Below, in pieces: positions 3,070 to 45,644 of a stretch of 64,000 bases of DNA (position 1 is its first letter; every line of letters begins with the position of its first letter). The stretch is from positions 1,116,001 through 1,180,000 of the forward strand of contig NC_090288.1 of assembly GCF_037392515.1 (NCBI RefSeq), in the 5' to 3' direction. The DNA is from Haliotis asinina (Eukaryota; Mollusca; Gastropoda; Lepetellida; Haliotidae). The position numbers and the translations under genes were made by a program. The notes beneath the pieces are model-generated. The model was not told where the DNA came from. It made no database searches and saw only the letters and a program-made list of their open reading frames with translations.

Positions 3070-4558
3070 AATTTATTATTGCTGCCGGCACTGACATGAA
3101 AAATATATCTCCTTCCCGTCTTCTTTCTTCTCCCCCTTGGCAATTGGTTAGGGCACAAATCGATTTAACTTGAACTATTTTTAAGAAATCAGAAACAAAT
3201 GCACTACAATACAAACAAGAATATATTCAATTAAAAAATAAATACTGCAATTACAAATCCTTATTCACAGATGGGTCCAAGGACGGTGACGCAGTTGCTT
3301 GAGCCACTGTCATTGGATCCAGAACGATATCTTCTAGATTACCACAGTTCTATATTTACTGCAGAAGCTAACGCCATATTGATGGCTCTTAAATATATTG
3401 AAAAACACCCTAAACAAAACAATATGTAATCTATTCAGACTCTCTTTCTTGCCTTAAAAATATTTCTTGTAAACATCCACTTTTAATAGAAATTATTGAA
3501 TTGTATAATGATCTTGCTACTGGCCAATGCGACATCGTCTTTTAAATTTGTTGGTTACCTAGCCACGTACGCATTTCTGGGAACACACTGGCTGACCTTG
3601 CTGTCAAGGCAGCACTCAGCAAATCCGTGACACCACTTCTTATTCCCTACACTGATTATAAAGCTACTATTAGATCTTACATCCATGATTTGATGCGGAA
3701 GAGCAAAACCCGATATCGGTTATGCCTACTTGGGTTGTCAGTCCAGATTTGAAGAGGTCATCATGCGACGATGTCATATTGGCCACACCAGATGTACCCA
3801 CAACTACCTACTGAAAGGTGAGGATCCTCCGTTCTGCGTTCCTTGTGATGAAAGAATCACAGTCAGGCACGTGATGACTGCTTGACTGTGTTGAATACTC
3901 CATCACAAGGAATACCTATTTTAAATCACGAACTATGAAGGATCTTTTTAACAATATAAGTTCTCATTTAATTATTGGATTTTCAAAAGAATTGGATTTG
4001 TTGACTGATTAGTAAATAGATCAATATTTTATGATTGGAACTTTAAATTAATAACTGGATAGTGGCAGTACCCTCAAGAGAGGTTGAAGTACCGTAAAAT
4101 TATTGTCCTCCTGAGAGGGTAGGTAAGTCCCAAAACATTTAAAGTAAAATTTAATCTTCCACACTTTTAGATGTAATATTATTGTCATTTTAATTCGTGG
4201 CTAAACTTGCATACAATCGCCAATAGGTGAAGGGATGGTGTACATCCAAATAGGGATCATGCAGGTAGCTAAGGTACTGTAAGTCCCCATGGCCCCTAGT
4301 ATGGTGATCTACCTTTAGTTGTTGGTGATCAATAGCCAATTTTTACGTGGTTTTGTCTAACATAGTTTTCTGCTTTTAAAAATACATTCTAGCTAGTTTT
4401 AATTTTTTTTTGTGATACTCTAGTTGTTTTACAGTGCGTCGATGACTGGTTCTTTAATTACTTGTATTTGTTGTGTGCATCTACAACATTTTTCGTCACT
4501 ATATGGCTGCAATATTGCCGATGTGACGTTAAATTTTAACTCACTCACTCACTCACTC
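3070..4558 (+). mobile_element. LINE remnant, unit 0: RNase H region, 3' UTR and (TCAC)n tail
   Basis: This is the 3' quarter of the I/Nimb-like LINE seen whole in unit 1 (about 11,800-17,928). It begins in the C-terminal part of ORF2, includes RNase H sequence near 3270-3420 (the TDGSK motif and a downstream TAEAN motif) and the Cys-rich C-terminal segment around 3720-3890, all broken by stops and frameshifts. The 3' UTR ends in TCAC repeats. The sequence after 4558 is the same as after the LINEs in units 1 and 2, so this is the same ancestral insertion shortened by an internal deletion and not a 5'-truncated new insertion. Confidence 0.8.
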
Positions 4559-5200
4559 TTTATCCAAACTCGAAATTTTGTTTTGCTTCTTGTTACTTTA
4601 TTCAAACTTGAAGTGAAAAATAATTGATTGCAGAACGTCAGTGCGAAGGAATACGCAGTCTTAAATGGTCTTAAAGGAAAAGTAACTTTGAACATTATTG
4701 GAATGGATCACAGAAAATCAAAGTGATCAACTCGTCAAGTTTTTGAAACAAAGAATAAATAATGGCTGAAGTAGCGGGAAAATACTAGCAATTTTAGAGA
4801 GTAAAAATAAGGTAGGTTTGAAACAAAATGTTTGTTGCCAAAAAGGCGCGATTAGCACCATGGTGGGCTTGTGTTGCCATTACAGGCAGAGTAGGAACAT
4901 GTGTTTCGCTGTTGCCGTCACAAACTGCTGACGCCAACAACATCCGAGTGGTCGTTATCCACCTATCTAGCCATCTGGTGGTAACCGTGTTAAAATATCA
5001 TTTCCAAAGAACTAAATAACACGTCAGTATGGCAATAACTGTGTTAAATCAATATTCCCAATTGACATCCATCTCTCCCAGCTGTTTCTTGTAACGATGG
5101 TACAGATACCCAACATGTTGTCCAATCAAGCGCCATTATTCGTGACATGTTATCTTTGAGATCTCAAATGCTTTTCCTGTTTCCTTTCACGAGTTTCTGA
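4559..5200. other. Gene-proximal upstream region, unit 0
   Basis: No convincing gene is seen. A 63-codon open frame at 4828-5019 recurs in unit 2, but in unit 1 its start is deleted, so it is not kept as a coding sequence. Near 5077-5120 lies a block shared with the divergent gene D promoter: CTCTCCCAGCTGTT (a CAGCTG E-box) and a CCAATCA motif. Confidence 0.5.
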
Positions 5201-5825: not shown

Positions 5826-7588
5826 ATGCGTCTGTTCCTCGTCCTCCTGCTTGTGGCCGTGGTTCTGATGTCGGAATCGGACGCCTGGAGAAGATTCAGG
5901 TTGAGGGTCCGCGGCCGGCGTTTACTTCGAACCGCTGGACGGGTGTACCGAGTTTACAGGCGATACAAACACATCATCAACCCAGCCGTCGGTAAGCCAG
6001 TACAGAAAGATGTTCTACAAACATGTTTAAGACTTCATACCTCTCAGTATATCAATATTTCTTGAGGACATCAGTCCATTTATTTGAAGATTATCTGTGG
6101 TAATAATGTGGGATCCACTTATTTCTGCCATAAGTAGAATCAAGGCACAGCAGAAGACAATGGTGGTCGTCGTCGTTTAGAATGTAATCAAAGTTTGGAC
6201 ATTTTTGGCATGCATTAGTTTTGCTATATCGCATTTTCTCTCCTTGAGTCCCATCCGGGATCTATAAAATGTGTAACTGGACGTCAAAATCACTCTGAAA
6301 GGTCTCAGAGGTCGAAAGCTATTAATACACTGTACCTTTCAGTAAGTGATGACTTTTAATAGTAAAAAGTGTCCACATTATGTGTTTCTCCTTTGTTTTC
6401 AATGTGAACATCATCAACGGATTTGAACGCCAACATACTGAAGACCGTTCACTAAGAGACTGATAAACAGGTGGAACCATTAGACTAAGAAACAAGTTAG
6501 CTTATGAAAAAATGCCAAAATTCAGGTGTCTTATTTAACAAAGAAATAATGTTCTTGGGTGTTTGAGTGATCGAATGAGTTATAATTGTGCTTCTTTGAA
6601 AACACGTTCAGTTAAATAGGCGGTTTTCATTGTACTGAGGACTCAACTCTGAAACATGAATTACTGTGTTTGGAAGTACTGTTTCATCTGTTCTGAGAAA
6701 TATTGAAATAGTCAAGGGGACAGAATCCTGTTATTATCAGTCTTAACAAACCGTAGCAATATGTGTTTGTTTTTCCTTTCTGTGTGAAAAAATCTCATTG
6801 TGTTAGCTTGAAGCCATTGCTTTGTAACTTTTACTACTGTGCGAGAATATATTTGTGTGTTCTTTGCTTTCAGGAGCCCTAGTTGGTAAGCGAAGTATTG
6901 ACGACCTCGATAAGAACAAGGATGGCAATATTGACCAATCAGAAGCTGAGGAACTGATGGAGAGAAGGGCGGCCGAGGATCTACTTTCACTTGCTGATGA
7001 AAACGGTAAACTTGACTCACCGTTCACATAATGACGATATATACAGTCCCTGTAACCCTGACTTTAATCACAAGTTATTTCATTGTGAACATGAAAATAA
7101 TGCTTAAGTAATGAAGAGATTTGGACTGATCATTTCAACAATTTCAGATGATTCAAACGTGAGTTTGGAGGAGTTCTCGAGGAGCATCCATGACTTCATG
7201 ACCATAGATTCAGGTAGTCGGACATGACGAGTTGAATTGTACTGGTTTTGTACAATCGAACATTACAGATAAATTGTATACGTTGTTGCACATAACATTA
7301 ACTTGAAATGTTCATATTCAAGTGAAGTCTAAAGCTGATATTAACAGTGTTCTTCATATATTACATTCTATCAAAAACATGAAAACATGTGCTACAGTGG
7401 AAACAGACCGAGGATCGTAATCAGGAATCATCCACAACCAGTCCTCGGGACTGCAAGATTGGATTTGAAGTATGGCTGAACTATAGTTGTCTGTGTATAT
7501 TGTAATCTGTGCCTAATGTTTCTTTTCAGACCCAGATTTGCAAAATGTACTGGAGAAGGAGTTTGCTGACGCTTTCGACTCAGAGTAA
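5826..7588 (+). CDS. Gene A: secreted Arg-rich cationic peptide / EF-hand precursor (140 aa, four coding exons)
   Basis: Coding exons are 5826-5991, 6874-7005, 7148-7213 and 7530-7588. All introns are GT-AG and phase 1. The start is the first ATG after the 5' UTR acceptor and opens a hydrophobic signal peptide (residues 1-20, ending SESDA). Residues 21-60 form a Trp-led, Arg-rich, Tyr-containing peptide with 12 Arg, one Lys and no acidic residue. Gly60-Lys61-Arg62 is a classic amidation and dibasic cleavage site. Residues 63-140 are acidic (26 Asp/Glu, 6 Lys/Arg) with two full EF-hand loops, 68-79 (DKNKDGNIDQSE) and 97-108 (DENDDSNVSLEE). By analogy with antimicrobial-peptide precursors, the acidic part may neutralise and fold the cationic part until secretion; this is inference. 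A peptide hormone or shell-matrix protein is also possible. I do not recognise a named family. Confidence 0.85.
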
Positions 7589-11494: not shown

Positions 11495-12605
11495 AAACAC
11501 ACACAAATATGTCTCACTTGAAGGTGACCTTGGACATCCAAAGATGAGTTATTTGTTCATCTGAGACAACAGAGAAACGCCCGTCCAACAGGTTAGTGCG
11601 TAGGACATTTCTGCTATGCCATTTTTCAAAAGGGGTTGAAAGGCTTTGAATAATGTCACCTTGATGAAAAAACTTATGGCGTTTTGGAAATCTTCATATG
11701 GGAGAGTGCACTTTGGCAGCACTTAGAAATGCTTACAGTGATTGTTCTAGTTAGTTTAGTTATTTGTATATCTTATTTCGATATTTATATTTATATATTT
11801 GTAATTGCGACCCCATGATCTCTACTTCAGGGTTATAGCCAAATCTGTGAATATTAACTATTTTCTAGTTCTTTTGATTATTCTAGCTGATTAAATTGGA
11901 TTTCCTGGTTTCGCTCCTAGCTTCCTTTCTTTGTGATTTCCATTTCAGGTCTCTTTTTCCAAAAGGCACACGTGGCGAGCCACCTCCTCGTGGTGGGTGC
12001 TGGGTTACGCCAAGAGCTCGCCAACACCCCTGTAGTGGACCTGGGGGCATATTTGGTCCACCAACCCGTTCGCCATGGGTTGCGGCCCTGTGTCGGTGGA
12101 GGAAGGGAGTCTGGGGGTTGAGGGCACTGGGGCCTGTGACCGCATTCTCTTTGCTCAACACACCCCTTCGACCCTTACTTCACCTAGACGAGAGGTTGAA
12201 TGGGCCCGGTTCAACCAATCGGCTGGGCACGCCATTCCCTGTGCGTAGAACTATTTTTGCACAGTTAATCAATTGGGTATTGGTGTCTTTGATATATGTA
12301 ATTCAAAATATTTTCAAATTATTCCTGATCTTATATTGCCTAGAGTCCTATGCCAGAATTTTGGTGGCTCATTGGCCAATCTGGTAATGTCAACCTCTGA
12401 ATTCCGTATGCCTCCAATTACCTGTTTAAGACTGAACCAGCCTGACTGTGCTTTTTGGTAGGCAAATATGGCTATTCACATTGTATTTCCTGGTGTATAC
12501 CACTCTTGTATCTCTGGTGTTGTAGATGGTTGCCTCTGCAACATCGTCCTTGTTGACGCTCGATCGCGGGTGGGGGTCAAGGGTGCTGAGTATTATTCAC
12601 ACGCC

Positions 12606-13830
12606 ATGTCTCAAAACCCCAGTCCTGGTTCATTGAAGGCAAATAAACGTCGCCACGTAGAATCTTTATCCTCTGATGAAGAAGTTTCTTCAGATGTAGC
12701 TAATTCTTGGTTTATTGTTATATCTTCTTTTGATGGAAACCCACTAAAACGTAATTCTTTCGCTGTGTCCAAAGGCATTCAAAGTGTATGTGGAGAGGTG
12801 AAAAATGTCACTGTTCTCCGAAATGGTTCACTGCTTGTTGAATGTGCACGGAGGCAACAATCTGTCAATTTGCTGAACCTTCAGGAATTTGTTAACACCA
12901 AGGTTGTTGTGTCGGTGCACAAGTCACTCAATTCATGTAGAGGAATAGTGCGGGATTATGCAAAGTGTCTGTCTGACATGGCAGAAGATGAAACATCAGC
13001 TGCTTTAAAAAGTCAAGGTGTTACATCTGTAAAACGGTTCACTAGGAAACAAGATGACAAAACACACACATACCTCCTTACATTTGCCTTGTCCTCTTTA
13101 CCCAAATCTATAAAGGCCGGGTATTATAACATTGCTGTGGACGTTTATATACCAACACCACTGAGATGTTTTAAATACCAAAGATTTGGTCATGGTACCA
13201 AGACTTGCAATCACAAGGTTAACTGTGTCCTTTGCAGCGGGGCGCATGAGAGCTCTGACTGCAATAATGAAATCAAGTGTGCTAACTGTCACGGACAACA
13301 CTTAGCATCATCCAAATCCTGTCCCAGTTTAGAAACCCAATATAGATTCCTCACAATTAAGTACACAAACAATATATCTTTCAGTGAAGCAAGAAATATT
13401 AGTTTCCACTGTAACTCAGTCTACTGCCTCTACTTACTCCGCTGCAGTTTCTTTAACTCAGCAAACTCAAGATTCTGTCTCATGGCAAACAGATATGTCT
13501 TGGGTGACAGAGAAGCAGATCAGCCTTGATAAATTTATCTCATCTCCAACTTCGCAGAAATGTTCATCAGCCTCTCAGACGGACGATCTCTCTGAATCGC
13601 TATCTGTCCATACCTTTCATTCTACAAGTGACCAAGAAAATGAGAAAAGTCAACTATCAAGAAATAAAAAGAAACATTCAAAGAAAAAGTTTAAAACGCT
13701 TATGCGTTTGGAGGTGCCTTCCACTTTGGAAGCCCCTGTGGCGGTTCATAATTCATTTGAACCGCTTGAGATGGATATCACTTCCTCACACTGTATCTTG
13801 CATGGGAGTGGTCCTTTCTATATGTCCTAG
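12606..13830 (+). pseudogene. LINE ORF1, gag-like zinc-knuckle protein (broken), unit 1
   Basis: The likely start is the ATG at 12606 (MSQNPSPGS). The frame stays open further upstream but in UTR-like sequence. An RNA-binding gag-like region is followed near 13165-13320 by a cluster of Cys/His knuckles. The first reads CFKYQRFGHGTKTC, where the usual second Cys is Tyr; the next two read CVLCSGAHESSDC and CANCHGQHLASSKSC. A frameshift near 13,390, shared with unit 2, moves the Ser/Thr/Gln-rich C-terminal part to another frame that ends at 13830. Compared with unit 2 it also lacks two codons after SW near 12,710. ORF1 proteins of this kind bind LINE RNA. Confidence 0.8.
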
Positions 13831-13849
13831 ATCTCCAGTTCAGCCCCCA

Positions 13850-16800
13850 CGAGTGGCTCATATCTCATTCAGTGGAATTGCAGAGGACTCAGGAAAAATT
13901 TCAATGAGGTACAATTATTAGTCCAAGATTTTCAGCCCATAGCAGTTTGTCTCCAAGAGACGTATCTTAAATCTACTGACGACTTGGCTTTAAGAAGATA
14001 CAACTGTTACGATTCCTTCTCTCCAGCGGGAGATAAGGCTTCAGGAGGATCTTCTATTTTGATTCGTCAGGATGCCATAAGTAGCTCCATTCCTCTTAAG
14101 ACAAATCTCCAAGCTGTTGCTGTACGGTTGACTATGCACATTGTATTTACTCTGTGTTCATTGTATATCCCTCCATCTACTACACTACAACAATCTGATC
14201 TTCGACAGCTATATGATCAGCTTCCTAGGCCCTGCATTATCATGGGGGGCCTGAATGGACACAACCCTCTGTGGGGAAGCATAAATACAAACATCAAAGG
14301 GAGAATACTCGAGGAATTCATAAATGACAATAATCTGTGCATATTTAATGACGATTCAAACACGTACATCCTGCCACTGGAACGTATTCAGCACTGGACC
14401 TTTCTCTTACAGATGCCAACTTATTAAATGAATTTCAATGGTCAGTTCATGACGACCTTTGTGGCAGCGATCATTTTCCCACTGTTCTGAAAGTGATAAG
14501 CCCACATGCTGATTCATCGTCATCTAGGTGGAATTTTAAAAAAAGCAAACTGGCAACTGTATGAGGTATTGTGTTCTTCAAATCTAACTCCTGACCATTT
14601 TAATAATACCGAAGATCCCATTCAGTTATTTTCAGATAAGCTCAATGCTATAGCTGATCACACAATAGCTAAATCCTCTGTAAATCCTTACATTCGTAAA
14701 CCATGGTTTACCAATGAATGTAAAGAGGCCAGAAAGTGTAGGAAGAAAGCCGAAAAATACTTTCGTCAACATCCAACAGTTGATAATTTAGACAAAGTAA
14801 AACTTTCAAATGCCAAGGCTCGACGTGCATTCAAACAAAATAAACGTCAGTCTTGGCGCAACTATGTTTCCAAAATCAGTTCTCGTGCACCGATTTCAAA
14901 AGTGTGGAATATGATTCAACGTATCAAGGGTAAAGGTTCGAAATCTTCAGTTTATCTTCTGAAGGATGGTGATTCTTTATTGACAGGTAAGGCTGACATT
15001 GCCAGCAAGCTTGGTGAAACACTCGCTAAGCATTCCTCTTCAACCAACTATGTCCCTGAGTTTCAGAAATACCAGACACAAGAAGAAAAGAAAAGAATTA
15101 ATTTTAAGTCAGACAATGGTGAGGATTACAACGAACTATTTTCACTACATGAGCTACATCCACCCCTTGAGCAAGCTCATGATACAGCAACAGGAGATGA
15201 TAATATTCACTATCAGCTCTTGAAGCATTTACCAGAATCATGTTTGGAAACACTTCTACACATTTTTGATACTATATGGACTTTGGGGGATGTCCCATCT
15301 TCATGGCGTAATGCCATTGTCATCCGTATACCAAAGCCTGGAAGGGATCATTCTGTTCCGTCTAATTACAGACCAATTTCTCTAACGAGCTGTGTCTGCA
15401 AAACAATGGAACGAATGGTAAACAATCGTTTAATTTGGTATCTTGAAACCAACAACCTTATTACAAATATTCCATATGGTTTCCCGAAAAAATCGAAACA
15501 CCATTGATCATTTGGTACGTTTAGATTCCTTTGTTAAAAATGCTATAGCCAATAAACAACATACTGTATCAATTTTCTTTGATCTCGAGAAAGCTTATGA
15601 TACGACCTGGAAGCATGGTATTTTAAAGGATTTACATGACTTTGTCTTTGAGAGGCCGTTTGCCTCTTTTTATACCACAGTTTTTAAAAGACAGGCAGTT
15701 TCAAGTCCGAGTGGGTTCAACCCGGTCTGATCATTACAATCAGGTTCAGGGTGTCCCTCAAGGTAGTATTTTGTCTGTCGTTTTATTTAGTATTACGATC
15801 AACAGTTTATCCAAGGTTTTAAATGACTCAGTTGATGGCTCGTTATTTGTGGATGATTTTAATATTTCTTGTCATGGTAAAAATATGCACACTACTGAAC
15901 GACAACTGCAGTTGTGTCTAAACAGAATAAATAAATGGTGTCTTGAAAACGGCTTTACATTTTCTAAATCCAAAACTAATTGCATACACTTTTGTAGACA
16001 ATATAAGCAACATACGGACCCTGAACTATCTTTAAATGGCACTCCCATCAAAGTTGTAAAGGAGGCCAAATTTTGGGGCTTAATTTTCGATTCTCATTTA
16101 ACGTTCTTACCACACATTAAATCCCTTAAAGCTAAATGCCTGAAGGCACTGGACTTGTTAAAGGTTGTTTCAAATTCACTCAAAGCAACCTTAAACTTTT
16201 AGATTCCGTCCACCACCAGTGTCTAAGATTTTGTCTTGGATCTTTCAGAACTTCGACAGTTGACAGCCTTATGTCGAGGCTGATGAGCCATCTCTTGACC
16301 AACGCCGTATAAAATTATCTTTGCAGTATATCACAAAACTATGTTCCAATGAGTCACATGCTGCATATGACTGTGTCTTCAATCCTCTCTATGAGGATTT
16401 GTACAATAAGAAATCTTCTCTTCTTCCGCCTCTTGGGCTCAGGATTAAGCCATTTATTATTGCTGCCGGCATTGATATGAAAAATATATCTCCTTCCCGT
16501 TTTCTTTCTTCTCCCCCTTGGCAATTGGTTAGGGCACAAATCGATTTAACTTTAACTATTTTTAAGAAATCAGAAACAAATGCACTACAATACAAAAAAG
16601 AATATATTCAATTAAAAAATAAATACTGCAATCACAAATCCTTATTTACAGATGGGTCCAAGGACGGTGGCGCAGTTGCTTGTGCCACTGTCATTGGATC
16701 CAGAACAATATCTTCTAGATTACCACAGAACAGTTCTATATTCACTGCAGAAGCTAACGCCATATTGATGGCTCTTAAATATATTGAAAAACACCCTAAA

Positions 16801-17313
16801 CAAAACAATATGTAATCTATTCAGACTCTCTTTCTTGCCTTAAAAATATTTCTTGTAAACATCCACTTTTAATAGAAATTATTGAATTGTATAATGATCT
16901 TGCTACTGGCCAATGAGACATCGTCTTTTGTTGGTTACCTAGCCACGTACGCATTTCTGGGAACACACTGGCTGACCTTGCTGTCAAGGCAGCACTATAA
17001 AGCTACCATTAGATCTTACATCCTTGATCTGATGCAGAAGAGGTGGGACACTGAAGTAGGTATAAATAAATTACATGAAATAAAACCCTATATCGGTTAT
17101 ACCTACTTGGGTTGTCAGTCCAGATTTGAAGAGGTCATCATGCGACTATGTCATATTGGCCACACCAGATGTACCCACAACTACCTACTGAAAGGTGAGG
17201 ATCCTCCGTTCTGCGTTCCTTGTGACGAAAAAATCACAGTCAGACACGTGATGACTACTTGGCTGTTGAATACTCCATCACAAGGGATAAATATTTTAAA
17301 TCACGAACTATGA
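13850..17313 (+). pseudogene. LINE ORF2: endonuclease, reverse transcriptase, RNase H (broken), unit 1
   Basis: The endonuclease occupies about 13,880-14,500 (WNCRG and LQET motifs). Its GDFN-type motif reads GGLNGHNPLWGS, so the catalytic Asp is Gly. Reverse transcriptase runs from about 15,230 to 16,080: PKPGRD and YRPISLTS, then FFDLEKAYDTTW, GVPQGS and the active-site box FVDD near 15,850. RNase H is at about 16,645-16,800 (TDGSK, TAEANA). A Cys-rich tail (ending CVPCDE) closes the frame near 17,230. At least four frameshifts and several stops break it. About 75 bp of the RT thumb region near 16,175 is missing relative to unit 2. Confidence 0.8.
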
Positions 17314-19115: not shown

Positions 19116-20879
19116 ATGCGTCTGTTCCTCGTCCTACTGCTTGTGGCCGTAGTGCTGATGTCGGAATCGGACGCCTGGAGAAGATTCAGGTTGAGGGTCC
19201 GCGGCCGGCGTTTACTTCGAACCGCTGGACGGGTGTACCGAGTTTACAGGCGATACAAACACATCATCAACCCAGCCGTCGGTAACCTAGTACAGGAAGA
19301 TGTTCTACAAACATGTTTAAGACTTCATACCTCTCAGTATATCAATATTTCTTGAGGACATCAGTTCATTTATTTGAAGATTATCTGTGGTAATAATGTG
19401 GGATCCACTTATTTCTGCCATAAGTAGAATCAAGGCACAGCAGAAGACAATGGTGGTCGTCGTCGTTTAGAATGTAATCAAAGTTTGGACATTTTTGGCA
19501 TGCATTAGTTTTGCTATATCGCATTTTCTCTCCTTGAGTCCCATCCGGTATCTACATTATGTGTAACTGGGCGTCAAAACCACTCTGAAAAGTCTCAGAG
19601 GTCGAAAGCTATTAATACACTGTACCTTTTAGTAAGTGATGACTTTTAATAGTAAAACGTGTCCACAGTATGTGTTTCTCTTTTGTTTTCAATGTGAACA
19701 TCATCAACCGATTTGAACGCCAACATACTGAAGACCGTTCACTAAGAGACTGATAAACAGATGGAACCATTAGACTAAGAAACAAGTTAGCTTATGAAGA
19801 AATGCCAAAATTCAGGTGTCTTATTTAACAAAGAAATAATGTTCTTGGGTGTTTGAGTGATCGAATGAGTTATAATTGTGCTTCTTTGAAAACACGTTCA
19901 GTTAAATAGGCGGTTTTCATTGTACTGGGGACTCAACTCTGAAACATGAATTACTGTGTTTGGAAGTACTGTTTCTTCTGTTCTGAGAGAATATTGAAAT
20001 AGTCAAGGGGACAGAATCCTGTTATTATTAATCTCAACAAACCGTAGCAATTTGTGTTTGTTTTGCTTTTTTGTGTGAACAAAATTTATTGTCTTTGTTT
20101 GAAGCCATTGCTTTGTAACTTTTGCTACTGCGCGAGAATATATTTGTGTGTTCTTTGCTTTCAGGAGCCCTAGTTGGTAAGCGAAGTATTGACGACCTCG
20201 ATAAGAACAAGGATGGCAATATTGACCAATCAGAAGCTGAGGAACTGATGGAGAGACGGGCGGCCGAGGATCTACTTTCACTTGCTGATGAAAACGGTAA
20301 ACTTGACTCACCGTTCACATAATGACGATATATACAGTCCCTATAACCCTGACTTTAATCACAAGTTATTTCATTGTGAACATGAAAATAATGCTTAAGT
20401 AATGAAGAGATTTGGACTGATCATTTCAACAATTCCAGATGATTCAAACGTGAGTTTGGAGGAGTTCTCGAGGAGCATCCATGACTTCATGACCATAGAT
20501 TCAGGTAATCGGACATAACGAGTTGAATTGTACTGGTTTTGTACAATCGAACATTACAGATAAAATTGTATACGTTCTTGCACATAACATTAACTTGAAA
20601 TGTTCATATTCAAGTGAAGTCTAAAGCTGATATTAACAGTGTTCTACTTATATTACATTCTATCAAAAACATGAAAACATTGCTACAGTGAAAACAGACC
20701 GAGGATCGTAATCAGGAAGCATCTACAACCAGTCCTCGGGACTGCAAGATTGGATTTGAAGTATGGCTGAACTATAGTTGTCTGTGCATATTGTAATCTG
20801 TGCCTAATATTTCTTTTCAGACCCAGATTTGCAAAATGTACTGGAGAAGGAGTTTGCTGACGCTTTCGACTCAGAGTGA
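19116..20879 (+). CDS. Gene B: cationic peptide / EF-hand precursor (140 aa)
   Basis: Coding exons are 19116-19281, 20165-20296, 20439-20504 and 20821-20879. The protein is identical to that of gene A: signal peptide 1-20, Arg-rich peptide 21-60, GKR processing site, EF-hand loops 68-79 and 97-108. Nucleotide differences in exon 1 are synonymous (for example CTC to CTA, and GTGGTT to GTAGTG) and match gene C. The stop is TGA where gene A has TAA. The donor after exon 1 is GTAACC, weaker than GTAAGC of gene A. The poly(A) signal position at 20913-20918 reads AATAAT. Confidence 0.85.
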
Positions 20880-22627: not shown

Positions 22628-24622
22628 ACCAGAAACTTGGGGAGCTAATGGCGCCTTAGCAACAAGCCATATCACGGTGACGGAAAGATGCGATCTGTTT
22701 GGATGAAGAACGATCAGTAGTAACCATGCATAATGATGTGTTGTGTTGTGCTAGGTGTAGTAAGTGTTATTAACTGTTTGTTGATAACTGAATGAAAAGT
22801 GTACGGAATTCTCGTTTTGTCTGCAGTTATCTGTGACAGCTGATGTTTAGGTGTGTGGCATCGATGTTCGTTGTGTAACAATGTTCTCAATGTAATGCAT
22901 TGTATGTAAATAATAATAAAGGTAATCTTGCATAGCTCCTGTTCCAACGTATTGATATACTTTGGATGTATTTATGACGGGTCCCTGCAGTGGTGCAGGA
23001 TACACTCACATTTTCACCGAGACGTGTTGTGTTTACAAAGAAAATGTGATATTAGAGCCTGCCTACGATGAATAACCATCTTTTAACTGTTAAGAATTTT
23101 TATACGTCCTTGCTGTTCTTCTATCATCTTACTGCTGTACGATCATCAGAGTGTTGCCGTTCAAACCCGTTGATGATATTCACATTGAAAACAAAGGAGA
23201 ATAAAATAAAATGTTCCTGATGAAACCCCGGTCACTGTGTATACAGTGTTGTATTGTGTATTTAATGTGTATTCAGTGTTTCGGTTGAAGTCGTTGCTGT
23301 CCTTCTTAGGCCAGGAGACCGTCGGTAGTTTGAAGATACCTTTGTACTAGATTGTTTATTAATTATACTTTCTCTTTCTGGTCATCATAATAAATAGTTT
23401 TATGAATTTGGGCGGTGTTCCACGTTGTTCCACAACGAACATCACTGCAATATGCCAATGCTAAAGTCTTAGCTATCACAGGTAATTGCAGACAAAATGA
23501 GAATTGCATAAACGTTTCACCCAGTCATCAGCAAACAGTTAATAACGTTTAACACACATCGCAACGCAACTCGAAAGAACACAACACACAGTGAGGGGGA
23601 TTGCAACTTAGTTCTCCTCTAACAGCAACGTACAATGGCGACATCTATGTCACATCTATATTGTCAGCATGTGATCATACCAGGCATTCACTTGAAGGTG
23701 ACCTTGGACATCCAAAGATAAGTTATTTTTTCATCTGAGACAACAGAGAAACGCCCGTCCAACAGGTTAGTGCGTAGGACATTTCTGCTATGCCATTTTT
23801 CAATATTTTTTTATATTTGTAATTGCGACCACATGATCTCTACTTCAGGGTTATAGCCAAATCTGTGAATATTAACTATTTTCTAGTTCTTTTGATTATT
23901 CTAGCTGATTAAATTGGATTTCCTGGTTTCGCTCCTAGCTTCCTTTCTTTGTGATTTCCATTTCAGGTCTCTTTTTCCAAAAGGCACACGTGGCGAGCCA
24001 CCTCCTCGTGGTGGGTGCTGGGTTACGCCAAGAGCTCGCCAACACCCCTGTAGTGGACCCGGGGGCATATTTGGTCCACCAACCCGTTCGCCATGGGTTG
24101 CGGCCCTGTGTCGGTGGAGGACGGGAGTCTGGGGGTTGAGGACACTGGGGCCTGTGACCGCATTCTCTTTGCTCAACAAACCCCTTCGACCCTTACTTCA
24201 CCTAGACGGGAGGTTGAATGGGCCCGGTTCAACCAATCGGCTGGGCACGCCATTCCCTGTGCGTAGAACTATTTTTGCACAGTTAATCAATTGGGTATTG
24301 GTGTCTTTGATATCTGTAATTCAAAATATTTTCAAATTATTCCTGATCTTATATTGCCTAGAGTCCTATGCCAGAAGGCGGTGGCTCATGGGCCAATCTG
24401 GTAATGTCAACCTCTGAATTCCGTATGCCTCCAATTACCTGTTTAAGACTGAACCAGCCTGACTGTGCTTTTTGGTAGGCAAATATGGCTATTCAAGTTG
24501 TATTTCCTGGAGTATACCACTCTTGTATCTCTGGTGTTGTAGATGGTTGCCTCTGCAACATCGTCCTTGTTGACGCTCGATCGCGGGTGGGGGTCAAGGG
24601 TGCTGAGTATTATTCACACGCC

Positions 24623-25796
24623 ATGTCTCAAAACCCCAGTCCTGGTTCATTGAAGGCAAATAAACGTCGCCACGTAGAATCTTTATCCTCTGATGAAGAA
24701 GTTTCTTCAGATGTAGCTAATTCTTGGCCAAAGTTTATTGTTATATCTTCTTTTGATGGAAACCCACTAAAACGTAATTCTTTCGCTGTGTCCAAAGGCA
24801 TTCAAAGTGTATGTGGAGAGGTGAAAAATGTCACTGTTCTCCGAAATGGTTCACTGCTTGTTGAATGTGCACGGAGGCAACAATCTGTCAATTTGCTGAA
24901 CCTTCAGGAATTTGTTAACACCAAGGTTGTTGTCTCGGTGCACAAGTCACTCAATTCATGTAAAGGAATAGTACGGGATTATGCAAAGTGTCTGTCTGAC
25001 ATGGCAGAAGATGAAATATCAGCTGCTTTAAAAAGTCAAGGTGTTACATCTGTAAAACGGTTCACTAGGAAACAAGATGACAAAACACACACATACCTCC
25101 TTACATTTGCCTTGTCCTCTTTACCCAAATCTATAAAGGCCGGGTATTATAACATTGCTGTGGACGTTTATATACCAACACCACTGAGATGTTTTAAATA
25201 CCAAAGGTTTGGTCATGGTACCAAGACTTGCAATCACAAGGTTAACTGTGTCCTTTGCAGCGGGGCGCATGAGAGCCCTGACTGCAATAATGAAATCAAG
25301 TGTGCTAACTGTCACGGACAACACTTAGCATCATCCAAATCCTGTCCCAGTTTAGAAACCCAATATAGATTCCTCACAATTAAGTACACAAACAATATAT
25401 CTTTCAGTGAAGCAAGAAATATTAGTTTCCACTGTAACTCAGTCTACTGCCTCTACTTACTCCGCTGCAGTTTCTTTAACTCAGCAAACTCAAGATTCTG
25501 TCTCATGGCAAACAGATATGTCTTGGGTGACAGAGAAGCAGATCAGCCTTGATAAATTTATCTCATCTCCAACTTCGCAGAAATGTTCATCAGCCTCTCA
25601 GACGGACGATCTCTCTGAATCGCTATCTGTCCATACCTTTCATTCTACAAGTGACCAAGAAAATGAGAAAAGTCAACTATCAAGAAATAAAAAGAAACAT
25701 TCAAAGAAAAAGTTTAAAACGCTTATGCGTTTGGAGGTGCCTTCCACTTTGGAAGCCCCTGTGGCGGTTCATAATTCAATGAGGTACAATTATTAG
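24623..25796 (+). pseudogene. LINE ORF1, gag-like zinc-knuckle protein (broken), unit 2
   Basis: The same protein as in unit 1, starting at the matching ATG at 24623. It shares the Cys-to-Tyr change in the first knuckle and the frameshift near 25,413, so both predate the duplication. The 145-bp deletion removes its C-terminal residues. Confidence 0.8.
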
Positions 25797-28390
25797 TCCA
25801 AGATTTTCAGCCCATAGCAGTTTGTCTCCAAGAGACGTATCTTAAATCTACTGACGACTTGGCTTTAAGAAGATACAACTGTTACGATTCCTTCTCTCCA
25901 GCGGGAGATAAGGCTTCAGGAGGATCTTCTATTTTGATTCGTCAGGATGCCATAAGTAGCTCCATTCCTCTTAAGACAAATCTCCAAGCTGTTGCTGTAC
26001 GGTTGACTATGCACATTGTATTTACTCTGTGTTCATTGTATATCCCTCCATCTACTACACTACAACAATCTGATCTTCGACAGCTATATGATCAGCTTCC
26101 TAGGCCCTGCATTATCATGGGGGGCCTGAATGGACACAACCCTCTTTGGGGAAGCATAAATACAAACATCAAAGGGAGAATACTCGAGGAATTCATAAAT
26201 GACAATAATCTGTGCATATTTAATGACGATTCAAACACGTACATCCTGCCACTGGAACGTATTCAGCACTGGACCTTTCTCTTACAGATGCCAACTTATT
26301 AAATGAATTTCAATGGTCAGTTCATGACGACCTTTGTGGCAGTGATCATTTTCCCACTGTTCTGAAAGTGATCAGCCCACATGCTGATTCATCGTCATCT
26401 AGGTGGAATTTTAAAAAAGCAAACTGGCAACTGTATGAGGTATTGTGTTCTTCAAATCTAACTCCTGACCATTTTAATAATACCGAAGATCCCATTCAGT
26501 TATTTTCAGATAAGCTCAATGCTATAGCTGATCACACAATAGCTAAGTCCTCTGCAAATCCTTACATTCATAAACCATGGTTTACCAATGAATGTAAAGA
26601 AGCCAGAAAGTGTAGGAAGAAAGCCGAAAAATACTTTCGTCGACATCCAACAGTCCATAATTTAGACAAAGTAAAACTTTCAAATGCCAAGGCTCGACGT
26701 GCATTCAAACAAAATAAACGTCAGTCTTGGCGCAACTATGTTTCCAAAATCAGTTCTCGTGCACCGATTTCAAAAGTGTGGAATATGATTTAACGTATCA
26801 AGGGTAAAGGTTCGAAATATTCAGTTTATCACCTCAAAGATGGTGATTCTTTATTGACATGTAGGCTGATATTGCCAGCAAGCTTGGTGAAACACTCGCT
26901 AAGCATTCCTCTTCAACCAACTATGTCCCTGCGTTTCAGAAATACCAGACACAAGAAGAAAAGAAAAGAATTAATTTTAAATCAGACAATGGTGAGGATT
27001 ACAACGAACTATTTTCACTACATGAGCTACATCCACCCCTTGAGCAAGCTCATGATACAGCAACAGGAGATGATAATATTCACTATCAGCTCTTGAAGCA
27101 TTTACCAGAATCATGTTTGGAAACACTTCTACACATTTTTGATACTATATGGACTTTGGGGGATGTCCCATCTTCATGGCGTAATGCCATTGTCATCCGT
27201 ATACCAAAGCCTGGAAGGGATCATTCTGTTCCGTCTAATTACAGACCAATTTCTCTCATGAGCTGTGTCTGCAAAACAATGGAACGAATGGTAAACAATC
27301 GTTTAATTTGGTATCTTGAAACCAACAACCTTATTACAAATATTCCATATGGTTTCCCGAAAAAATCGAAACACCATTGATCATTTGGTACGTTTAGATT
27401 CCTTTGTTAAAAATGCTATAGCCAATAAACAACATACTGTATCAATTTTCTTTGATCTCGAGAAAGCTTATGATACGACCTGGAAGCATGGTATTTTAAA
27501 GGATTTACATGACTTTGTCTTTGAAAGGCCGTTTGCCTCTTTTTATACCACAGTTTTTAAAAGACAGGCAGTTTCAAGTCCGAGTGGGTTCAACCCGGTC
27601 TGATCATTACAATCAGGTTCAGGGTGTCCCTCAAGGTAGTATTTTGTCTGTCGTTTTATTTAGTATTACGATCAACAGTTTATCCAAGGTTTTAAATGGT
27701 TCAAGTGATGACTCGTTATTTGTGGACGATTTTAATATTTCCTGTCATGGTAAAAATATGCACACTATCGAACGACAACTGCAGTTGTGTCTAAACAGAA
27801 TAAATAAATGGTGTCTCGAAAACGGCTTTAAATTTTCTAAATCCAAAACTAATTGCATACACTTTTGTAGACAATATAAGCAACATACGGACCCTGAACT
27901 ATCTTTAAATGGCACTCCCATCAAAGTTGTAAAGGAGGCCAAATTTTGGGGCTTAATTTTCGATTCTCATTTAACGTTCTCACCACACATTAAATCCCTT
28001 AAAGCTAAATGCCTGAAGGCACTGGACTTGTTAAAGGTTGTTTCAAATTCACTCCTTCAATTATACAGATCATTAGTACGATCTAAACTTGATTACGGTT
28101 CCATCGTATATGGTGGAGCCTGCAAAAGCAACCTTAAACTTTTAGATTCCGTCCACCACCAGTGTCTAAGATTTTGTCTTGGATCTTTCAGAACTTCGAC
28201 AGTTGACAGCCTTATGTCGAGGCTGATGAGCCATCTCTTGACCAACGCCGTATAAAATTATCTTTGCAGTATATCATAAAACTATGTTCCAATGAGTCAC
28301 ATCCTGCATATGACTGTGTCTTCAATCCTCTCTGTAAGGATTTGTACAATAAGAAATCTTCTCTTCTTCCGCCTCTTGGTCTCAGGATTA
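25797..28390 (+). pseudogene. LINE ORF2: endonuclease and reverse transcriptase (RNase H deleted), unit 2
   Basis: The endonuclease carries the same Asp-to-Gly change (GGLNGHN) as unit 1. Reverse transcriptase motifs are PKPGRD, FFDLEKAYDTTW, GVPQGS and FVDD near 27,720. A stop in the linker near 26,791 and another frame break near 26,860 are private to this copy. The frame runs out at the deletion near 28,405 before RNase H. Confidence 0.8.
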
Positions 28391-29997: not shown

Positions 29998-31761
29998 ATG
30001 CGTCTGTTCCTCGTCCTACTGCTTGTGGCCGTAGTGCTGATGTCGGAATCGGACGCCTGGAGAAGATTCAGGTTGAGGGTCCGCGGCCGGCGTTTACTTC
30101 GAACCGCTGGACGGGTGTACCGAGTTTACAGGCGATACAAACACATCATCAACCCAGCCGTCGGTACGCCAATACAGGAAGATGTTCTACAAACATGTTT
30201 AAGACTTCATACCTCTCAGTATATCAATATTTCTTGAGGACATCAGTTCATTTATTTGAAGATTATCTGTGGTAATAATGTGGGATACACTTATTTCTGC
30301 CATAAGTAGAATCAAGGCACAGCAGAAGACAATGGTGGTCGTCGTCGTTTAGAATGTAATCAAAGTTTGGACATTTTTGGCATGCATTAGTTTTGCTATA
30401 TCTCTCCTTGCATTTTCTCTCCTTGAGTCCCATCCGGGATCTACAAAATGTGTAACTGGACGTCAAAATCACTCTGAAAGGTCTCAGAGGTCGAAAGCTA
30501 TTAATACACTGTACCTTTTAGTAAGTGATGACTTTTAATAGTAAAAAGTGTCCACAGTATGTGTTTCTCCTTTGTTTTCAATGTGAACATCATCAACCGA
30601 TTTGAACGCCAACATACTGAAGACCGTTCACTAAGAGACTGATAAACAGATGGAACCATTAGACTAAGAAACAAGTTAGCTTATGAAGAAATGCCAAAAT
30701 TCAGGTGTCTTATTTAACAAAGAAATAATGTTCTTGGGTGTTTGAGTGATCGAATGAGTTATAATTGTGCTTCTTTGAAAACACGTTCAGTTAAATAAGC
30801 GGTTTTCATTGTACTGAGGACTCAACACTGAAACCTGTGTTTGGAAGTATTGTTTCATCTGTTCTGAGAGAATATTGAAATAGTCAAGGGGGCAGAATCC
30901 TGTTATTATCAATCTTAACAAACCGTAGCAATTTGTGTTTGTTTTGCCTTTTTATGTGAAAAAATCTCATTGTGTTTGTTTGAAGCCATTGCTTTGTAAC
31001 TTTTGCTACTGCGCGAGAATATATTTGTGTGTTCTTTGCTTTCAGGAGCCCTAGTTGGTAAGCGAAGTATTGACGACCTCGATAAGAACAAGGATGGCAA
31101 TATTGACCAATCAGAAGCTGAAGAACTGATGGAGAGACGGGCGGCCGAGGATCTACTTTCACTTGCTGATGAAAACGGTAAACTTGAGTCAGCGTTCACA
31201 TAATGACGATATATACAGTCCCTGTAACCCTGACTTTAATCACAAGTTATTTCATTGTGAACATGAAAATAATGCTTAAGTAATGAAGAGATTTGGACTG
31301 ATCATTTCAACAATTTCAGATGATTCAAACGTGAGTTTGGAGGAGTTCTCGAGGAGCATCCATGACTTCATGACCATAGATTCAGGTAATCGGACATAAC
31401 GAGTTGAATTGTACTGGTTTTGTACAATCGAACATTACAGATAAAATTGTATACGTTCTTGCACATAACATTAACTTGAAATGTTCATATTCAAGTGAAG
31501 TCTAAAGCTGATATTAACAGTGTTCTACTAATATTACATTCTATCAAAAACATGAAAACATGTGCTACAGTGAAAACAGACCGAGAATCGTAATCAGGAA
31601 GAATCTACAACCAGTCCTCGGGACTGCAAGATTGGATTTGAAGTATGGCTGAACTATAGTTGTCTGTGCATATTGTAATGAGTGCCTAATATTTCTTTTC
31701 AGACCCAGATTTGCAAAATGTACTGGAGAAGGAGTTTGCTGACGCTTTCGACTCAGAGTGA
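29998..31761 (+). CDS. Gene C: cationic peptide / EF-hand precursor (140 aa)
   Basis: Coding exons are 29998-30163, 31046-31177, 31320-31385 and 31703-31761. The predicted protein is identical to A and B. The first donor is GTACGC, which departs from the GTAAG consensus, so splicing of intron 1 may be less efficient. If that intron were retained, the frame would run to a stop at 30235-30237 and give a 79-residue secreted cationic peptide without the EF-hand part. This copy has an intact TATA box and a standard poly(A) signal (AATAAA at 31795-31800), the best promoter/terminator pair of the three young copies. Confidence 0.85.
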
Positions 31762-33565: not shown

Positions 33566-36500
33566 AGTCGTCGGAAGGGCTATTCTTTAGTTCAGTCAAC
33601 TGTTCTTGATGATTCCAGGTATGTAATAATGAAAGTAGGAAATTCAGAAATGGTGTCCATTCTGGCTAGTGGTTTATTTTTAAAACGTGAGTGTTAATAT
33701 TTTGTAGTTATTGATGTTTATATATTTTAGTGTTATTTCTATATCTGGTTCCTGCAGAAATAAGTTTAACTCTCAAGGTAACTGTATAATCAAATTTAAT
33801 ATTGTTTCTTTTGTTATGTGAAAAAAGGTACAATATAAAATATTAAATACATTATTCCAATCTTGAGTAAGTATGTAGACCATGTTTGAAAGAGCATTTG
33901 CAACCAACTATTGCATAATGTTAACAAGTATTTAGAACAATACAAATTATTTTGTATTATTAGTATTGTGTATCTCCATTTTCAGATCAAGAGATGTACT
34001 GTCGGACAGAGCGTGGAAGTCATTCTTCATTGACCTCAGTGATGACCCTACAGATAACCCATGTCAAGAAGCAACAGATTCTGATAGTTGTTCAGCAGAT
34101 GAATTCTTAGTTATTTTGGACAAAGTTCACCAGTATCATCCAGACAACAATGTGGATGAATTTGTTGATGGCACCATGTGGTACCACAGGTACCAGGAAT
34201 ATTTGAATTTGAAAAAGGAGCTGCTTCAGCATGTAGATGAGCTTGGTAATTTTACAATTGCAAGAAACCAACGTGAAAACATCACAATTGTGCAGTTTTA
34301 TGACAGTGACTTAGGCTCAGTCCAGCTTTCAGTAGTCATCAAGCCATCCTTTACAGCAGCCATATATGCGCATCGACGTGACATTGGCCCAAATCATGAA
34401 TTCTGGATTGGTTTACCTTCATTTTTCTCCATTCTTAATGATGTGAAAAAACTTCTATCAAAACTGTCTACATACCATGTTTGTGTTGACAATTACGAAG
34501 ACAGATTTGTAGACATGATTCCGGTTGGTGCAGGGTTAAGTAGAGGAGCTATTTCAGCAATATCTGCCTACCGAGAAGGAGAGTTTGGAGCTAACATAAC
34601 TGGAATTGCTGATACTTCTACCATCCGATCCATGAAATGTCAGTTCCTGGTGTCTCAGAGAGACCGTTGTAGCCATTGCAGTAAATACAGAGCCACACTC
34701 CGAGCAAATGCCAGAAGAGACTGAAAAACAGAAACCAAATAACTTTTGTCACACGACTCATAACAACATGTCGAAGAATGAAGTCATAGAAAAGTACCTA
34801 ATGATGAAAAGTCGAATGTCGAAATTCCATTCAGCTTGAAATGGAGCGTTTAAGAAAAAACATATCCAAGAATATTACTCAGAAAGGTCTTCACGTAAGT
34901 GCTTCATCTAACTCAGAATTCCAGAAGCTCTTGATGGAACACTCGGATGAAGTATGTCATAATTACCCCGATGAAACATCTATTCAGAGACCTTTCTGGG
35001 AGCAGCAGAAACAATAGAGTGACGTCAAAGACAAACGCACAATGAGATGGCATCCAATGGTAATTAAATGGTGTCTCTACATGCGAAGTAGAAGTCGAAA
35101 GGCTTATGACATTGCTGGCAAGTCGTGCTTCATATTATTCCCAAGCAAAAGGACATTGTATGATTATTCCCATGCTCTTCCACGTTCACTTGGCTTTGAT
35201 TCCAGTTATTCAAAACATTTAGAAGGAGAATCCAAGTCACCTCGAATGTTAGACATTGAGGCAAAATCCTATGTTGGCATTCTTCAGGATGAAGTAAAAG
35301 TGTCTGAAGGTCTTGTATATGCCAAAAACACTGGAGAACTGGTTGATTATGTTGATCTTGACAGAGTTGGCCATGCCTTGCTCTGTTTAGAGGAGGTTAT
35401 TACAGGCAGTAAACCTCAACTAGCAAATACAATGTTCGTCCCCATGATCCGTGGTATTGTGGCAGATCTGAAATACCCATATGCAGCCTTTGCCACTGGG
35501 GGTGTAAGTGCCGATTACCTATTTCCAATACTTAGGGGAGCTGTTATTAATTTGCAAACAATTGGATTGAAGCCGCTTTTTATAACCTGTGATAGATCTT
35601 CACTCAACCGAAGGTTCTTCAGCTTGCACGAAGTACCACAGGTGAATACTTTCTACTGGACGTGGAATCCCTACTGTCGTCCATGCAGGAAAGTTTACTT
35701 CATTTCAGATGTTCCTCATCTTATCAAGACCACCAGAAACTGTTTTTCGAATTCAGGATCCCACAAAATGACCAGAGATCTGTGGAAGGATGGCCGTGAC
35801 ATCAGTTGGATCAATATTTTGAGGTTGTATGAAGAACATGTAGAAAAAGCCTTGTTTTGCAAGACATACAAGCTTACTAGAGACCATGTAGATTTGCCAC
35901 CATACACAGCCGTGAAAGTCAACCCGTTAGCACAGATATTTAGCAGCTCTGTTGCAAATGCTATGGAGGAACCATATGGGTACCCAGTCAGAGAAACTGT
36001 GAACCTAATTGGACATATGAACCGTTTTTTATTGTCTCAACACAAGGAGTTTGCAGGAAGGAAACATAACTCGGAACAGTGACAAACAAGAGTACCGAAA
36101 TGTTCACGACACCAGAGTGGATTATCTTGTTAATGACTTCTTGAATTTTTTCAAAGCCTGGGAGGATAGTGTTATGCAACGGCCAGGGCAATTTACTTCC
36201 ACCCAAAGCAAATGTATGATGCTCACACATGTCATCAAACACTGAAAGGACTTACAATATATGTATATTCCACTGTAGGGCGTGTGCGATTCATGCTTGC
36301 TGCAGGTGCAGAATTTGTTCTAACTCACCGATTTAATCAGGACCCTGTAGAAGAACAGTTTAGACATAAAGGAGGCGCAAATGACAATCCATCAGTTTAC
36401 GCTGTCAAACAGAACTTTTCACAGATAACGGTCATTGGTTCATCTGTGCTCCAACCAATACGTGGCAACATATCCAACAAGAGACCACACCCTACCATGA

Positions 36501-40043: not shown

Positions 40044-40833
40044 TGGGGAGGGTGAGGTGACAGATTTTTCAGCCCTGAAGATGCAAATTTACATATTACA
40101 TAGTGGATAGGATGATATAATTTAAAGGTTTGTTCTGAATAAGGTAACGAGAGAGAGATCCATTCCCTATGTTATTCCAGCAATAACATATCCTACGAAT
40201 CGTACTGAAAATTAAGTTTATCCAACATCTACTCACAGTGGGATTTTTAGCTCAGACATTCTAATGTTTAGGCCCTTAGAAATACTGATGGAAAGCGTCC
40301 AACACGCCTAAAGTTTAAATCTGTACAGGTTTGTAAGCTTCCAAACACTAGATTTTAGTTTTCATCACTCTGTTCTCTACCACCTTAAGTACGTAGACTG
40401 ATAATTTTGAATTTTGATTTTAACGTACTGATCTTAACTCTAATCTCAGACTGTTTCTGGAATACGGAAACAACAGGTGGATGTCTCAAGCCTGCTGCTT
40501 GGAAGTCCACTATATAGGTGGATCACTCCCCAAGTATGGTAACTACCGGTCAGTATACACAACCTTGGGTGTCTTATTTGGTCCATTCTGGATACGGTAG
40601 GTGACGTCATCAATTTGTTTGATGACTACCCAAACCTTTGACCATTTTGGAGTGAGTTTGTAGCTGAGGTTAGTGGCTTTGTGGGGCTTAAATAACCATA
40701 CTGGTTGCCCTACTTTGAGTCTGGACTCTTTACTTCCCTAGTCAAAACGTTTTTTCCGCACCTCAGAAGAACATTTGAGACTTCTTCTGGCAGTTTCAAA
40801 AGCTTTTTGAAACTGTTGCTTGATCTCTTTCAC

Positions 40834-43800: not shown

Positions 43801-44226
43801 TGTTTGGAAAATCCCTATAGCCTTGAACAAAGTTCCATTCACAGCCTCAAGCATCAGGTCAATAAGTTTAATAGCTGTAGAGGAGGACAAACGCTTGCTT
43901 GCAGCATGAGACAACAGAGACACTTGACTACCAGTGTCAACAAGTAAGGTGAAATAAGTTTGACCTATCCTTAAGTTAACAAATTGGCCCTTATCACCTA
44001 TTTTAAAACAAGTTTGGAAATCTGCTTTGACAGCAACTGGGTCAGGTGGATTGTGTTGAGGATTATTTGGAATTATCTCCTTTTCATTGGAAAACACACA
44101 AATCCCACTTTCCACCTGACCACTGGTTTTAACTGAGTTAGGATTTGTGGTCCCATTATCTGGTTTATTCTCCACTGCATCCGACCTACTTCCGGGCCAG
44201 TGGATAACCGTTTCCCTGACAGCCAT
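40834..44226 (-). mobile_element. Pol region of the LTR element: protease, RT, RNase H, integrase
   Basis: Motifs in order are the protease LLVDTGSQ; RT with MDLQAGYWQVEID and MPFGLCNAPSTFE; RNase H with TIDSDASGDGLGAVLSQ and later ALSRRPC; and the integrase core with VVTDSFTKWTEAYAIP, LHSDQG and NGQVERFNRTL. This order is diagnostic of Ty3/Gypsy. The region is broken. Confidence 0.8.
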
Positions 44227-45567: not shown

Positions 45568-45644
45568 TCTATGTTTTAATCAAGTTATTTACAAAATATT
45601 TCTTTGATCCACAAGAAGGGATCCCACCGGTGCCACCATAAAAC

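Follow-up and report, generated by a model that had tools for sequence, protein, structure and literature searches.

The window analysed here, a 64-kb stretch of the Haliotis asinina genome, contains four genes for secreted-type precursors with the same order of parts: a signal peptide, an Arg-rich Cys-free stretch, Gly-Lys-Arg, an acidic EF-hand pair, and an acidic tail. The genes probably encode precursors of abalone host-defence peptides. The precursor observation as a whole is confirmed, and this explanation builds on features seen directly in the sequences, namely, the gene structure, the conserved site, the charge split, the constraint on the propiece, the fast change of the cargo, and the spread of the family.

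Gene structure and divergence of the four copies

All four genes lie on the + strand and consist of four coding exons separated by GT–AG introns, every one of them in phase 1 (Table 1). Their translation bears out the layout proposed in the sequence-only reading, that is, four copies of a signal peptide, a cationic peptide, a Gly-Lys-Arg site, and an acidic part with two EF-hands. Copy 4 coincides, letter for letter, with an annotated H. asinina “uncharacterized protein” (P0001).

Table 1. Precursor genes and their parts in the window (positions in the window).
Feature	Position	Strand	Remarks
Copy 1	exons 5826–5991, 6874–7005, 7148–7213, 7530–7588	+	140 aa, by translation
Copy 1, signal peptide (residues 1–20)	5826–5885	+	predicted from its hydrophobic core and by aligning the family
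Copy 1, cationic peptide, exon 1 part	5886–5991	+	last residues, ALV, fall in exon 2
Copy 1, exon 2	6874–7005	+	end of cationic peptide, Gly-Lys-Arg, EF loop 1, start of EF loop 2
Copy 1, Gly-Lys-Arg site	6885–6893	+	by translation
Copy 1, EF loop 1	6909–6944	+	in exon 2
Copy 1, EF loop 2	6996–7005 (exon 2) and 7148–7173 (exon 3)	+	split by intron 2
Copy 1, exon 3	7148–7213	+	remainder of EF loop 2
Copy 1, exon 4	7530–7588	+	acidic tail and stop codon
Copy 2 (19116–20879)	exons 19116–19281, 20165–20296, 20439–20504, 20821–20879	+	protein identical to copy 1
Copy 3 (29998–31761)	exons 29998–30163, 31046–31177, 31320–31385, 31703–31761	+	protein identical to copy 1
Copy 4 (59993–62012)	exons 59993–60173, 60927–61055, 61210–61275, 61948–62012	+	146 aa

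Copies 1–3 are held by three tandem units, about 94–99% alike, at positions 1–33400 of the window. A LINE-like reverse-transcriptase element occurs in two of the units (about 11786–17300 and 23804–28250), RVT_1 exceeding the cut-off only in the second element, and a LINE 3′ remnant is seen in the first unit (3071–4766). The window also contains a TNP-like transposase at 35018–36079 (Pfam RNase H, E 1.6e-13; GTP-binding insertion, E 9.8e-9) and, on the − strand at 40800–45600, retrotransposon remains that are Gypsy-like by reading (RT_RNaseH, E 1e-26 at 41490–42776).

The coding differences among copies 1–3 are synonymous only (four between copies 1 and 2, five between copies 1 and 3, and one between copies 2 and 3), and their stop codons differ, TAA vs TGA. 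Comparison of copies 1 and 4 yields, for the propiece, 14 synonymous changes per ~47 sites and 10 nonsynonymous changes per ~196 sites (dN 0.053, dS 0.381; Fisher p 8e-6). For the cationic part, dN is 0.335 and dS is 0.978, the synonymous excess being significant here as well (Fisher p 0.009). The nonsynonymous rate is greater in the cationic part than in the propiece (p 9e-7); synonymous change is somewhat greater there too (p 0.04), and thus a part of the rate difference may be due to the local rate or to the alignment. In a loose global alignment of the same two copies with five shuffles each, a clear excess is confined to exons 2 and 3 (93.0 vs 75.0 and 95.5 vs 79.5 shuffled, respectively); the peptide part falls below its shuffles (72.5 vs 75.9%), the introns equal theirs, and the signal and exon 4 lie slightly above, the measure being uninformative outside exons 2 and 3.

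The cationic peptide and the EF-hand propiece

The charge split of the sequence-only reading, +13 for the cationic peptide against −20 for the propiece, is exact for copies 1–3, and copy 4 has +16 and −22, respectively. The same reading was also correct in describing the peptide as free of acidic residues, which is true of both the 39-aa (copies 1–3) and the 43-aa (copy 4) forms, and in placing Gly-Lys-Arg, found in four out of four copies. The peptide has pI 12.0, with Arg accounting for 12 out of 39 residues in copies 1–3 and 16 out of 43 in copy 4, and none of the four window proteins contains a cysteine. Each precursor carries a single long peptide, predicted to end with ALV or SAI directly before Gly-Lys-Arg, and a propiece of 78–80 residues. 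If amidated at this site, the peptides would have computed average masses of 4850.8 Da (copies 1–3) and 5499.4 Da (copy 4). The ends of the mature peptide are uncertain due to internal RGRR furin-type sites, one in copies 1–3 and several in copy 4, and RR within the EF linker could be a further cut site. Eight consecutive Arg residues of copy 4 (60059–60082) are coded mostly by an AGA microsatellite, and hence the charge of this peptide may change by repeat slippage. The correlation between peptide and propiece charges among 16 members (rho −0.46, p 0.07) is not taken as charge compensation.

AlphaFold2 run without an alignment models a helix at residues 3–31 of the copy 1 peptide (mean pLDDT 70), and the copy 4 peptide is modelled as a helix too (mean pLDDT 68); the amphipathic stretch exceeds 98.8% of shuffles for copy 1 and 99.1% for copy 4. 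An amphipathic helix is ruled out as a trait of the whole family, as only six of the 38 cationic parts in the abalone-type set score above 95% of their shuffles. In many abalone-type members, a block of Arg precedes a hydrophobic one.

The propiece had been described as having two canonical EF loops. Two 12-residue loops with ligands at positions 1, 3, 5, 9, and 12 indeed satisfy a relaxed pattern in all four copies, and “canonical” is slightly generous, since the full PROSITE-type EF pattern is matched by neither loop in any of the copies. Two relaxed loops arise in 54 out of 200,000 shuffles of the copy 1 propiece. Pfam EF-hand_1 scores 19 bits for copy 1, below the cut-off of 25.4, and 25.8 bits for copy 4, just above it, and reaches E 0.01 or better in 17 out of 18 members of alignment A1; NCBIfam matches are all far below their cut-offs. 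When the profile of 18 diverse members was compared with solved EF-hand pairs, the best match was SCaMC-1 (E 2.4e-8), followed by calcium-binding protein 1 and calmodulin. Since the family profile matches solved EF-hand pairs, the pair likely binds calcium. The loop starts are 29 residues apart, and the segment between the loops falls short of those in SCaMC-1 and troponin C by seven residues. In P0006, ligand position 3 of EF loop 2 is occupied by Lys, and thus some copies may have lost this loop.

Spread of the family in Haliotis and Gigantopelta

A protein search with copy 4 as the query yielded 18 clusters, and a profile search, in which the 7992 candidates sharing most words were scored, yielded 42. 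The abalone-type set comprises at least 39 clusters (P0001–P0039), 38 of them from H. asinina, H. cracherodii, H. rufescens, and H. rubra; the family counts leave out a fragment (P0040) and a four-EF protein of another layout (P0042). The nearest to copies 1–3 is P0006, the representative of its cluster, with four positions different from copy 1. Gly-Lys-Arg and the acidic propiece (charge −8 to −22) are present in 39 out of 39 abalone-type clusters, and the signal and a Cys-free cationic part (+3 to +18) in 38 out of 39, the exception being P0013, whose N-terminus is different. Asp at the start of loop 2, 29 residues past loop 1, is found in 37 out of 39 (all except P0009 and P0036) by a test that checks this one residue only; P0017, P0036, and P0038 are truncated in loop 2, and P0039 has extra residues there. 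P0009 is intact (141 aa) within a contig of 502 bases and, if its introns are as in the window genes, which span ~1.8–2.0 kb, would represent a spliced transcript, a hint of expression. The relatives that carry a name are annotated as “uncharacterized,” except for two abalone clusters named “calcium-binding protein 5-like” and one Gigantopelta protein named “oncomodulin-like,” and no functional family name occurs among the Haliotis and Gigantopelta relatives retrieved. No relative was found in a scan of viral contigs. The sequence data support the proposal of a secreted-type multicopy precursor family in a mollusc, with an amidation-competent cationic peptide and an acidic EF-hand propiece.

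The conservation of Gly-Lys-Arg bears on the view that the protein stays uncut and serves as a shell or mucus matrix protein, a secreted molecule of two charges that would bind calcium and acidic polymers in biomineralization. Secreted EF-hand candidates for the shell matrix do exist in abalone, e.g., Hdh-SMP5 of Haliotis discus hannai, which resembles the precursors in having a signal peptide (16 aa), an acidic composition (24 acidic vs nine basic residues), and EF-hands (PMC10741955). However, as far as it is described there, Hdh-SMP5 has three predicted EF loops (36–48, 56–68, and 112–124) and no cationic block, as opposed to the EF pair and the cationic block of the precursors, and the conserved Gly-Lys-Arg has no explanation in an uncut protein, so that a matrix role seems very unlikely. 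Two Hdh-SMP5 primers have no match in the 64-kb window with up to three mismatches allowed.

Among 12 long members, with gaps scored as differences, the mean identity is 0.57 in the cationic part, 0.89 in the signal, and 0.87 in the EF pair, and in 66 out of 66 pairs the signal and the EF pair are both better conserved than the cationic part. The mean identity of the acidic tail is 0.60, nearly as low as that of the peptide, and thus the cargo is not alone in changing fast. Each Haliotis species has seven to eleven clusters, and their peptides differ.

These data weigh on another explanation, a peptide-hormone or neuropeptide precursor in which the amidated basic peptide would act as the ligand, with the EF-hand part serving as its prohormone chaperone. 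Gly-Lys-Arg is a classic amidation site, and there is a gastropod precedent, the snail gene pleurin (HCS2). According to the title of Bogdanov 1998, this neuropeptide gene includes “an EF-hand motif region,” and the same gene is called pleurin in PMC8398477; it shares with the abalone family a gastropod precursor with an EF-hand region. On the other hand, pleurin precursors are described as having three or four copies of peptides ending with PRXamide (PMC8398477), whereas the abalone precursor has a single long Arg-rich peptide that does not end in this way. The number of clusters per species, with their differing peptides, is unlike a hormone. Hormone ligands are usually conserved, and the abalone peptide is the less conserved part in every pair compared, which makes a hormone precursor unlikely.

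The conservation of the EF pair, similar to that of the signal and far above that of the acidic tail, exceeds what a mere charge mask needs, and this agrees with a further possibility, that the cleaved cationic peptide stays in a complex with the EF part and both act outside the cell, e.g., with the EF pair withholding metal from microbes. However, no metal site beyond the EF loops is seen in the sequence, and the conservation of the pair could equally serve folding; joint action of the two parts therefore appears improbable.

The propiece tree has many open forks; it was built from 66 columns and 46 out of 47 rows, P0036 having been excluded by the length filter. It separates Gigantopelta from the abalone-type rows (support 100/99) and sets off, within abalone, a subfamily whose 20 rows include all four species (99/97). 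As this subfamily spans four species, at least one duplication predates those Haliotis species.

The profile search with the abalone set retrieved P0041 from Gigantopelta aegis, and a search with P0041 yielded eight proteins, itself included. All eight come from a contig of equal length (120.6 Mb), and the locus numbers, available for seven, run from LOC121370732 to LOC121370748; the close numbering and the equal contig size suggest that the eight genes form one cluster. The acidic propiece is present in eight out of eight proteins, Asp at the 29-residue loop spacing in seven, and a cationic part of +3 or more in seven, with P0049 having +2 as parsed. The string Gly-Lys-Arg occurs in one protein, P0049, inside a basic stretch and not adjoining the propiece, while the others have Gly-Arg or Lys-Arg instead. 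The cargo is mostly Pro/Arg-rich, and in P0045–P0047 consists of Pro/Arg/Gly repeats, e.g., PRPGPIGM-type units in P0047; amphipathy beyond shuffles was found in none of the seven proteins analysed (all except P0049).

Profile-to-profile comparison of the abalone alignment A1 with the Gigantopelta-only alignment A4 gives E 8e-18 over 108 columns, signal included, and the matches of the generic EF-hand protein P0042 span 49 columns for A1 (E 2.6e-7) and 47 columns for A4 (E 7.4e-9). In the database search, P0042 (E 3.7e-4) was not far behind P0041 (E 6.8e-6). Because the whole layout is shared, and not the EF part alone, the comparison supports one family for the Haliotis and Gigantopelta sets rather than two fusions. 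The precursor layout is not due to chance, given the constraint, the EF-loop shuffles, and the recurrence in abalone and Gigantopelta.

Known antimicrobial precursors and the preferred explanation

The sequence-only reading knew of no antimicrobial precursor whose propiece is an EF-hand pair. As a claim of novelty this was wrong, because such a layout is seen in the precursor of mytimycin, a usually cationic antifungal peptide of mytilid mussels with 10–14 cysteines, encoded by a multigene family: in the variant studied, a signal of 23 aa precedes a Cys-rich peptide of 54 aa, followed by a dibasic site and an acidic EF-hand extension of 75 aa (PMC8004829). The reported occurrence of mytimycin is in Mytilida, where one of the sequences has no EF part (PMC8004829). 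As described there, it shares with the abalone family the signal, the usually cationic peptide, the dibasic site, the acidic EF-hand extension of a similar length (75 vs 78 aa), and the multigene character. At the same time, mytimycin has a backbone of ten invariant cysteines, whereas there are none in the window proteins and none in the cationic parts of 38 out of 38 relatives; its published description gives no Gly before the dibasic site (PMC8004829), as opposed to the amidation-type Gly-Lys-Arg of abalone; and the closely spaced EF pair sets the abalone family further apart, mytimycin being compared by description only.

The other comparable group are myticalins and modiocalins of mussels, linear Cys-free Arg-rich and also Pro-rich peptides, often with a Lys-Arg site leading to a C-terminal amide (PMC5577615, PMC12294457), with a conserved signal and a hypervariable peptide (PMC5577615), and clustered genes (PMC12294457). 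The abalone peptide has the described myticalin features, being linear and Cys-free, with pI above 11 and more than 10% Arg. Both have a phase-1 intron after the exon for the signal and the peptide; however, the peptide end and the dibasic site are encoded by the next exon in abalone and by the same exon in myticalins (PMC5577615). The myticalin acidic extension, compared by description only, is of low complexity with no mention of an EF-hand in the source texts, as opposed to the EF-hand pair of abalone. The abalone family is thus built like the mytimycin and myticalin precursors and is a member of neither, because it lacks one defining feature of each: the Cys backbone of mytimycin and the low-complexity extension of myticalins. 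The open-licence papers searched contain no report of the gastropod family, its Cys-free amidation-type cargo, or the cargo diversity, and in the same literature strings of the family peptides and the intron repeat motif occur in zero papers each.

We favour host-defence peptide precursors for three reasons. First, a conserved signal and propiece surround a variable cationic core, as in antimicrobial-peptide families. Second, the clustered copies and the Cys-free Arg-rich peptide resemble myticalins. Third, mytimycin, with its antifungal properties, has the same combination. Several results speak against this reading: few members are amphipathic beyond shuffles, the acidic tail is almost as variable as the peptide, synonymous change is also raised in the peptide, internal basic sites leave the mature ends uncertain, the exact amidation string does not adjoin the propiece in Gigantopelta, and EF loop 2 is altered or truncated in some abalone-type members. 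Secretion, cleavage, amidation, calcium binding, microbe killing, and masking are roles that we infer from the parts of the precursor. Signal peptidase would take off residues 1–20, and a proprotein convertase would cut after Gly-Lys-Arg; Lys-Arg would then be trimmed by a carboxypeptidase, with PAM converting Gly to a C-terminal amide. The product would be an Arg-rich membrane-active peptide of about 39–43 residues. The acidic EF-hand pair (78–80 residues), probably calcium-loaded, would hold the cationic part in a folded, neutral, and harmless state during its passage through the secretory path, and then be shed.

A broader proposal, which we advance tentatively, as it may well prove mistaken, is that the EF-hand pair serves as an old carrier of dangerous cationic peptides, gated by calcium and open to reuse, whose cargo is swapped while the carrier stays. 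Calmodulin clamps melittin-like peptides, and the calcium-bound EF pair might likewise clamp its own basic cargo, releasing it when calcium or pH falls. The cargoes would include the Arg-rich helices and the Arg-block/hydrophobic-block peptides of Haliotis, the Pro/Arg repeats of Gigantopelta, and, perhaps, the Cys-rich peptides of mytimycin.

Disease has been described as a threat to abalone farming (PMC4631488), and Cys-free antimicrobial peptides from molluscs as rarely reported (PMC12294457). The 38 cationic variants on one conserved propiece are a ready set of candidate peptides, and the Pro/Arg/Gly repeats of Gigantopelta add cationic cargo of another class to the same carrier. The role of the EF-hand in the precursor was left unexplained by the mytimycin authors (PMC8004829), and the abalone family makes answerable their question about the purpose of an EF-hand in an antimicrobial precursor.
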